Shown here: positions 24,992 to 26,413 of the stretch, one piece after another | Numbering within the stretch: position 1 is the first letter of the stretch | Layout of the letters: each line of letters starts with the position of its first letter | Assembly (NCBI RefSeq): GCF_001541925.1 | Contig: NZ_LQMW01000009.1 | Coordinates: 1 to 64,000, forward strand | DNA: 64,000 nt | From: Nitrosopumilus sp. Nsub | Lineage (GTDB): Archaea > Thermoproteota > Nitrososphaeria > Nitrososphaerales > Nitrosopumilaceae | Reading direction: 5' to 3' | Made by a program: the position numbers and the translations under genes | Notes under the pieces: model-generated | The model's input: the letters and a program-made list of their open reading frames with translations, nothing else | Told to the model about the DNA's origin: nothing | The model's database searches: none

Positions 24992-25942
24992 TTAGAAACC
25001 TTTTGGTAGTGTTCCCCTTGAAGGTTTAGCAGGTTCTGTTTCAGCCTTTGCTTCAAATCCTTTTGGTAATGCACCACCTTTCTTATTAGCTGCTACTTTT
25101 GCTGCGGCTTCTGCTGCTGTTTTTTCTGCTGCAGCTTTTGCATCATCAATTTTTTGTTGTTCCAATCTTTTCAGATAATCAGCTTCATAATCTGCCAATT
25201 TTTCGGATTTAGATTTCCCATCATCAACATAAGTTGTTTGTTCTGTTTGTTGAGTAGTTTGGGTTTGTTCCATTCCTTTTGGTAGTGTACCTTTTTTAGG
25301 CTTTGGTGGTTCTGATGTTGGTGCTTGTTTTGCTTTTGCATCAACGCCATCAACAGTCATAGCGACACCACTGAAACTTCCAAATGTTTTATCTGCTGGA
25401 TGATATGCCATTCTAGCTCTTGTTGCAAAGTATTGATTAGATACTGCGGTATAACCAGTTACTGTTGCTTTTTGATCATTCCAGTTTTTAGTTGGTACCT
25501 TTCCTACAGGAGCTGTTCTTCTAACAAAGTATCTGTTAGGTGCAGGCGAATATCCAGTAACTTTTGCTCTGTACTGATGGAAATCAGATGTTGCAGCAGT
25601 CATGTATGCATTTTCTAATGCATCTTGAACAGTTGTTGGTAGTTGCGATGTTGTCTCAGCTGGTTTTGTCTCTGCAGGTGTCTCAAATCCTTTAGGTAGT
25701 GTACCTTTTGGTTTGGTTGTTGCTGCAGGTCTCTCAGCTGGTTTTGGAGTTTCTTTTGGTTTTGCTTCAGAACCTTTTGGAAGTGTAGGTTTTGGCTTTG
25801 CTGTCTCAGCTGGTTTTGTCTCTGCAGGTTTAGTTTCTGCTGGTTTGGTGGTTAGCTGATCAGATAATTTTGATAATTTTGCCTCTAATTCTGCAATCTT
25901 GTCTTCAAGATCTTTTTTTGTTTGCTTTTTAGCAGCTGCCAT
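24992..25942 (-). CDS. Low-complexity protein with five LPKG motifs
   Basis: The 316-residue protein is not recognised. It begins with a basic coiled-coil (about 1-31), then Pro-Ala-Glu-Thr-Lys linkers. Five copies of a short motif stand at 53-58 (TLPKGS), 81-86 (TLPKGF), 219-224 (TLPKGM), 291-296 (ALPKGF) and 311-316 (TLPKGF, the C-terminus). A central pair of similar units, VTGYSPAPNRYF and VTGYTAVSNQYF, lies at about 128-139 and 161-172. No signal peptide or membrane span is seen. The layout suggests a scaffold whose repeated peptides bind a partner. Confidence 0.8.
   Translation of the reverse strand: MAAAKKQTKKDLEDKIAELEAKLSKLSDQLTTKPAETKPAETKPAETAKPKPTLPKGSEAKPKETPKPAERPAATTKPKGTLPKGFETPAETKPAETTSQLPTTVQDALENAYMTAATSDFHQYRAKVTGYSPAPNRYFVRRTAPVGKVPTKNWNDQKATVTGYTAVSNQYFATRARMAYHPADKTFGSFSGVAMTVDGVDAKAKQAPTSEPPKPKKGTLPKGMEQTQTTQQTEQTTYVDDGKSKSEKLADYEADYLKRLEQQKIDDAKAAAEKTAAEAAAKVAANKKGGALPKGFEAKAETEPAKPSRGTLPKGF
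25652..25829. repeat. 28-base direct repeat within the LPKG gene
   Basis: Identical 28-base units at 25652-25679 and 25802-25829 are 150 bases apart and encode part of the Pro-Ala-Glu-Thr-Lys linkers. They could drive gain or loss of linker and motif units by recombination or slippage. Confidence 0.8.
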
Positions 25943-26008: not shown

Positions 26009-26017
26009 TTTTATATG
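26009..26017 (+). promoter_or_regulatory. TATA-like box deciding the start at 26039
   Basis: TTTTATATG is centred 26 bases before the ATG at 26039, so transcription would begin there and the earlier in-frame ATG at 26015 would lie inside the promoter. Confidence 0.5.
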
Positions 26018-26038
26018 TCCAATCAGACAATCTCTGTC

Positions 26039-26413
26039 ATGGATGATTTTGAGAAAGAATTTCCAGATTTTGATTGGAAAAATACACCTGCATATAAACA
26101 TCCAGGAGGCAGAAATTGTCCATGCCCAAAACATGAGTACATTAGAGAACAAATCAATTTTACAAAACAAGTCAATGAGAAAGGAAAAGAACCTGCTAAA
26201 GTCACGCTAAAATTCTGCCCAGATCATTACAGAGTATACTTAGATGAAGTAATTCCAGCAATGCCATTAAAGTATAGAATTTTAACAAAAATTGCATTAA
26301 AATTAGGTGCAATCAAAATTGAGCAATTAAAATACATGGAATCAGAATTATGTTTTTACTGTAAATTTGGTTCTGGCGGTCATGATAAAAAAACAGAATT
26401 ACCACCAATGTAG
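26039..26413 (+). CDS. Cysteine/histidine-rich protein, probable metal binder
   Basis: The protein has 124 residues from the preferred ATG. It shows GGRNCPCPKHE near the N-terminus, KFCPDHYRVY in the middle and ELCFYCKFGSGGHD at the end. These are several Cys and His pairs that could hold zinc or an iron-sulphur cluster. No family is recognised. It sits in the divergent region with the LPKG protein gene and ahead of ubiD, with which it may be cotranscribed. Confidence 0.65.
   Translation: MDDFEKEFPDFDWKNTPAYKHPGGRNCPCPKHEYIREQINFTKQVNEKGKEPAKVTLKFCPDHYRVYLDEVIPAMPLKYRILTKIALKLGAIKIEQLKYMESELCFYCKFGSGGHDKKTELPPM

Follow-up and report, generated by a model that had tools for sequence, protein, structure and literature searches.

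The window analysed here, the whole 64,000-nucleotide stretch of Nitrosopumilus sp. Nsub DNA, contains a gene of a conserved, lineage-restricted protein family in which a short motif, LPKG, recurs along the chain and at its C-terminus; in mesophilic ammonia-oxidising archaea (AOA), AmoX, a membrane subunit of ammonia monooxygenase (AMO), begins with the same motif, in the form TLPKG[FY]. Judged from the sequences, the motif common to the two proteins suggests a new docking system that organises AMO. We see a close to even chance that TLP[KA]G[FMWY] acts as a docking motif in the cytosol of AOA, and of these archaea only, and that the product of the window gene is a multivalent, disordered scaffold which makes use of it (called the scaffold below, for this putative role). 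Such a protein would probably cluster or tether AMO.

A basic protein with five LPKG motifs

The open reading frame call, on the minus strand in a genome of 1.38 Mb, gives a protein of 316 amino acids with an ATG start (Table 1). With a pI of 9.5 the protein is basic, and its composition is biased towards A, K, T and P. LPKG starts at residues 54, 82, 220, 292 and 312; the corresponding hexapeptides are TLPKGS, TLPKGF, TLPKGM, ALPKGF and, directly before the stop codon, TLPKGF. The original prediction had described these five motifs, with the last at the exact C-terminus, together with a central pair of VTGY units, and both descriptions hold; the units are of the VTGY-N-x-YF type, VTGYSPAPNRYF from residue 128 and VTGYTAVSNQYF from residue 161. 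When the protein was shuffled 20,000 times with its composition kept, two or more LPKG motifs never appeared.

The longest exact DNA repeat within the gene measures 28 bp. Repeats of this kind had been taken as a sign that the copy number of the motif can change. The exact repeat is present, and LP[KA]G does vary between species, from 0 to 10 per protein across 87 distinct relatives, which were gathered by sequence pattern and are not a balanced sample; the repeat itself, however, sits in the PAET linker and carries no LPKG motif. Motif-bearing linker blocks are duplicated in the proteins of other species (for example L014, L027 and L304).

Nothing above the cut-offs was found for the scaffold protein in Pfam, NCBIfam or PHROGs, nor any family match in the PDB; matches to DUF1501 and L29 were below cut-off and low-complexity, and were set aside. 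A sortase or archaeosortase signal was rejected, the protein having no signal peptide and no membrane anchor, and its motif being repeated internally. A role as an AMO subunit was rejected as well: the protein is highly charged, disordered and lineage-restricted, with no apparent membrane helix, and the neighbours of its locus are UbiD, peroxiredoxin and aquaporin genes, with amo genes not nearby. We found no published description of an LPKG motif in these archaea: LPKG-type strings occur in 49 papers, and all of the 20 listed deal with unrelated matters, coronavirus epitopes for the most part.

Upstream of the scaffold locus, in every map made, lies the gene for a conserved 132-aa protein (26015-26413 of the window, plus strand) with several Cys and His residues (CPCPKH, CPDHY, CFYCKF). 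It had no Pfam or NCBIfam match and is likely a metal-binding protein.

Table 1. Features of the scaffold gene, in window positions.
Feature	Position	Strand	Basis
LPKG scaffold gene (putative scaffold), 316 aa	24992..25942	-	ORF, relatives, comparison with tandem pairs elsewhere
N-terminal helix (predicted), residues 2-31, KKDLEDKIAELEAKL	25850..25939	-	AlphaFold2, conserved in alignment A2
Motif 1, TLPKGS, residues 53-58	25769..25786	-	sequence
Motif 2, TLPKGF, residues 81-86	25685..25702	-	sequence, DNA pattern search
Conserved VTGY region, residues 104-205	25328..25633	-	column identity, pLDDT, A1 profile search
VTGY unit 1, VTGYSPAPNRYF	25526..25561	-	sequence
VTGY unit 2, VTGYTAVSNQYF	25427..25462	-	sequence, alignment A3
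Motif 3, TLPKGM, residues 219-224	25271..25288	-	sequence
Long-paralogue helix (predicted), residues 245-288, EKLADYEADYLKRLEQQ	25079..25210	-	AlphaFold2
Motif 4, ALPKGF, residues 291-296	25055..25072	-	sequence, DNA pattern search
Motif 5, TLPKGF, residues 311-316, exact C-terminus	24995..25012	-	sequence; C-terminal LPKGF in relatives
Stop codon after motif 5	24992-24994	-	
Exact 28-bp repeat copy, PAET linker	25652..25679	-	sequence
Exact 28-bp repeat, second copy	25802..25829	-	sequence

Predicted disorder and the VTGY region

The AlphaFold2 model of the scaffold, built with 29 sequences, has a mean pLDDT of 53, with values below 50 in 191 of the 316 residues. Confident helices appear only at residues 2-31 (pLDDT 80-87 across residues 11-30) and 245-288 (85-94 across residues 241-280). 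Outside these helices most of the protein is predicted to be intrinsically disordered, and the N-terminal helix is probably an oligomerising coiled coil.

The VTGY region is the most conserved part of the protein (81% mean column identity across 13 species of the genus), yet its pLDDT is mostly 39-62 and no fold is modelled, so that a folded VTGY domain finds no support in AlphaFold2. Unit 2 is the one retained in the most divergent genera (alignment A3). The pair resembles a disordered but conserved binding region more than it does a simple linker: a region both conserved and disordered may offer a partner-binding surface that becomes ordered on binding. Searched against the PDB, the VTGY profile matched only short stretches of an E. 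coli fimbrial fusion (E 0.0037 and above), which we judged to be chance.

Family distribution and selection on the motif

A profile of the VTGY-region alignment (A1) found relatives in 137 of 167 genomes and in 19 of the 20 genera of the family, by inference Nitrosopumilaceae (names of families beyond Nitrosopumilus being assigned indirectly, partly from AmoX type); among high-quality genomes the count was 116 of 131. A single-protein query had recovered 38 of 61 relatives, nearly all from its own genus. The scaffold is present in nearly all marine-type AOA checked. Nitrososphaeraceae-like and Nitrosocaldaceae-like genomes gave only insignificant matches to the VTGY family, and no VTGY relative was found in viral contigs.

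A search for LPKGF C-termini, put forward with the original prediction as a check on it, found them in 73 of the 87 distinct relatives, and homologues with the repeated motif are widespread. The strict pattern occurs 2.2 times per relative, compared with 0.0002 in composition shuffles. Between genera the linkers are wholly different while [ST]LP[KA]G[FMWY] is retained; the LPKG motif is under selection. Motif copies in poorly conserved linkers and predicted disorder are the marks of multivalent, disordered short-linear-motif scaffolds, which are a kind of protein and not a homology family. Together with the conserved terminal LPKGF, the persistence of the motif in fast-evolving linkers and its varying copy number, they lend support, at the level of sequence and model, to the multivalent scaffold or recruitment tail first proposed for this gene.

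The motif is not uniform. In genus g29 about ten residues follow the last copy (a short tail, ..ANTGH), in g28 and g25 the motif takes the form LPAG[MFW] near the C-terminus, and in a Nitrosotalea-like genus the scaffold has LPAG[MF] but AmoX retains LPKGF. The motifs of scaffold and AmoX therefore do not match exactly in every case, and a free carboxylate is dispensable in some.

Tandem paralogues and concerted evolution

In many genomes a tandem short/long pair lies between the 132-aa gene, which adjoins UbiD, and a peroxiredoxin-aquaporin pair. The short paralogue, which lies upstream, consists of helix, linkers, VTGY and terminal LPKGF, and the long one, downstream, has one additional helix and two additional motifs. 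The window genome and a few others have a single, fusion-like gene, with an N-terminus of the short type and a C-terminus of the long type, as deletion between tandem copies would leave. Judged from these arrangements, the tandem pair is ancient and was fused to one gene in the window genome.

Paralogues within one genome share 95-100% DNA identity over VTGY in 19 of 20 pairs, and 100% in 14 of the 20, against an average of 75% for orthologues between genomes, which argues that gene conversion keeps the paralogous VTGY regions alike. Examples of this concerted evolution are L089-L093, L004-L006 and L297-L299. Many Nitrosopumilus assemblies break inside the scaffold gene (contig ends in G004, G010, G011, G032, G034 and others) because of its repeats and near-identical tandem copies. 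The gene is thus probably under-counted in metagenome-assembled genomes, and counts of its copies from fragmented genomes are minimum values.

The same motif at the start of AmoX

Carriers of LPKGF in the window's genome were sought by a DNA pattern search, which gave three matches in the scaffold gene, one overlapping pair outside any predicted gene frame and only one other in-frame instance, the start of AmoX (MTLPKGFGSGGAGGSSSADVERMIG...), whose gene adjoins amoA. A match at G000:C9:32917 was discarded: no ORF corresponds to it, and the opposite strand carries an arginyl-tRNA-synthetase-like gene there. Experiments support AmoX as an AMO subunit; it is present in the purified complex, and its N-terminal peptide is unmentioned in the paper on that complex (PMC10030591). 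The organisms of the complexome study were Nitrososphaera and Nitrosocaldus; these appear to be without the scaffold, so its absence from the published AMO complexome is uninformative. A PDB search found no solved AmoX structure. The motif at the start of AmoX is the first candidate for what the scaffold motif may connect to.

From the two mesophilic families, 51 distinct AmoX sequences were collected; every one starts with MTLPKG[FY], residues 1-6 being invariant and residue 7 either F or Y. All 28 full-length Nitrosopumilus sequences examined have MTLPKGF, as do those examined from the family's other genera; two Nitrososphaeraceae-like genomes, whose AmoX is about 50% identical overall, have MTLPKGY. 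Synonymous codons vary in the motif, hence selection acts on the peptide. Scanned across the order, M[ST]LPKG[FY] matched in 159 of 250 genomes and the reversed pattern in 0; a Nitrosopumilaceae genome typically has one match, which was amoX in every case read.

A Gly/Ser linker, differing in length between families, follows the AmoX motif, and in the AlphaFold2 model residues 1-16 are unstructured, with a long helix from residue 17. By contrast with these mesophilic forms, AmoX of families f2 and f3 (G037, G053, G038 and G054; L258-L261), presumably Nitrosocaldaceae-like thermophiles, starts at the helix, with neither motif nor linker. The missing extension in thermophilic AmoX points to a change within AmoX that tracks the radiation of mesophilic AOA. 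Under the positive-inside rule, the basic residues beside the AmoX N-terminus and those that separate helices 2 and 3 would make this N-terminus cytosolic, in the same compartment as the scaffold, which is without a signal peptide. Since the scaffold was not found in Nitrososphaeraceae-like genomes, the AmoX motif is independent of it.

Further carriers of the motif

The Nitrosocosmicus-like genus g8 has about three M[ST]LPKG[FY] matches per genome, two of them extra small proteins that start with MTLPKG[FY], are mutually unrelated, recur across the genus and belong to no known family. One is an 87-aa protein (MTLPKGFGSQ...DEWWATVPGDLKTKARKG...; L226 / L328:5251-5514, G043). The other, starting MTLPKGY (MTLPKGYVIPNKEAEEK...LLWDQLREAYLQTMKEATSSYFRLLDFW; L227 / L327:5056-5487, G043), has a long charged helix repeat and a conserved C-terminal segment; a link of this protein to phasins or PHA was rejected, since it matched no family above cut-off and no PHA genes could be recognised in its neighbourhood. 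Eighteen N-terminal MT[LF]PKG[FY] matches in viral contigs were apparently unrelated or out of frame.

Beside a CofD-like gene lies that of a membrane protein whose cytosolic tail is often Cys-rich and metallothionein-like (CGCAASAEIGTECDC...CLCDATC); its homologue in the window genome is at G000:C4:16086-17399. In two species an LPKGF tail replaces the Cys-rich one (L084:2628-3932, G023; L085:684-2105, G024), and in G023 the DNA of this tail matches the end of the scaffold gene almost exactly, so that the tail behaves like a module that can pass from one protein to another. A helix-hairpin-helix-like protein (L087:1127-1771, G016:C136) has a scaffold-like coil at its end, then an in-frame stop and a stretch ending in TLPKGF, possibly another tail fusion that is now interrupted. 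Four other LPKGF-stop matches within the genus (G026:C98:3231, G026:C133:1816, G031:C4:356334 and G009:C1:326142) lie in very short frames or low-quality ORFs and were judged chance.

A docking model and its alternatives

The fuller reading is more tentative, falling somewhat short of an even chance: mesophilic AOA would have a docking code of TLP[KA]G[FMWY] motif and receptor at the cytosolic face of AMO, and in Nitrosopumilaceae a dedicated scaffold and its paralogue would array or tether the enzyme. In the reading to which we give a close to even chance, the motifs of scaffold and AmoX would be functionally equivalent and bind one common receptor. AmoX would hold out a single docking peptide on the cytosolic side of the membrane, at the end of a flexible tether formed by its N-terminus, and the receptor of TLPKG[FY], a soluble protein or a groove on AMO, would have evolved with the mesophilic AOA. 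Because Nitrososphaeraceae-like genomes have the AmoX motif with no detectable VTGY scaffold, neither the VTGY region nor the scaffold is likely to be this receptor.

The Nitrosopumilaceae scaffold, cytosolic, mostly disordered and probably made oligomeric by its helical N-terminus, would display two to ten copies of [ST]LP[KA]G[FMWY] on variable PAET/PPKP linkers, one usually C-terminal, while its conserved disordered VTGY segment would hold a second partner. It would plug into the receptor of the AmoX motif with high valency. Carrying several motifs, the scaffold could cluster or bridge receptor-bound AMO, or else tether other components to it.

Among known systems, the scaffold may work most like CsoS2, whose disordered repeats, with VTG and tyrosine motifs, and conserved C-terminal peptide assemble carboxysomes (PMC11365436). 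CsoS2, of alpha-carboxysomes, and the scaffold are both disordered, repeat-bearing cytosolic proteins with variable linkers, short repeated motifs (in CsoS2 including (V/I)(T/S)G with a conserved tyrosine), helical N-terminal elements and a highly conserved C-terminal peptide (PMC11365436). They differ in that LPKG is not a CsoS2 motif, the scaffold is much smaller and its presumed target is a membrane enzyme. No profile match in Pfam, NCBIfam or PHROGs indicated homology to CsoS2, and no CsoS2 chain was among the PDB matches. AOA are not known to have carboxysomes; they fix carbon by the hydroxypropionate/hydroxybutyrate cycle. Another likeness is to terminal-peptide hubs such as bacterial SSB, in which a conserved hydrophobic peptide at the end of a disordered linker recruits partners. 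The SSB tip, however, is acidic and single-copy on an OB-fold protein, whereas the scaffold motif is basic, occurs in several copies and is attached to no folded domain. AmoX itself has TLPKG[FY] in common with the scaffold, at its N-terminus on a flexible tether, but it is a membrane protein with a single motif copy and is otherwise dissimilar.

An unlikely but serious alternative is that the scaffold has nothing to do with AMO. LPKG would then bind another cytosolic partner, at storage granules, the nucleoid or cell-division sites for instance, and TLPKG[FY] in AmoX would be convergent use of the receptor by a protein not physically linked to the scaffold. The scaffold is indeed absent from AOA whose AmoX has the motif, its locus adjoins UbiD, peroxiredoxin and aquaporin and not amo, the Nitrosocosmicus MTLPKG[FY] proteins are not near amo genes either, and N. 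maritimus has polyphosphate and PHA-like granules (PMC11082331). Against this, it would be an improbable coincidence for the hexapeptide to occur in the genome's one other protein when that protein is a universal subunit of the main energy-conserving enzyme, with the motif on what appears to be the same side of the membrane as the scaffold.

It is quite improbable, in our view, that the scaffold forms a homotypic condensate, its own VTGY region or helices binding LPKG in a self-assembled network with AmoX as a client. AlphaFold2 gives neither a folded VTGY domain nor a confidently docked motif, and the AmoX motif occurs without VTGY, although both types of element do lie on one chain and the near-identity of VTGY between tandem paralogues (14 of 20 at 100% DNA identity) would be expected of a shared binding surface. 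Still less probable is a terminal LPKG[FY] that serves several proteins as a processing, modification or stability signal (a degron, an anti-degron or a lysine modification site) and not for docking. The motif is found at the N- or C-termini of unrelated proteins and the AmoX lysine is invariant, but many copies are internal, the last residue is varied, some genera have alanine in place of lysine, and AMO, a major complex, should be long-lived. Chance resemblance, in which the scaffold would owe its motifs to low-complexity drift and the conserved N-terminus of AmoX would be unrelated to them, is already strongly disfavoured: LPKG is short, and LPKGF or LPKGY is present in unrelated proteins, but the conservation is extensive and broad, the motif is specific within the genome, its reverse is absent from 250 genomes, and it recurs in further proteins, with the tail transferred to a membrane protein.

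Docking connected with AMO would supply a candidate function for a widely conserved, unannotated Nitrosopumilaceae gene. Much of the nitrification in the ocean is due to the AMO of these archaea, and a strictly conserved N-terminal peptide of AmoX, common to a repeat-bearing putative scaffold, offers a concrete and testable handle on how the enzyme may be organised.
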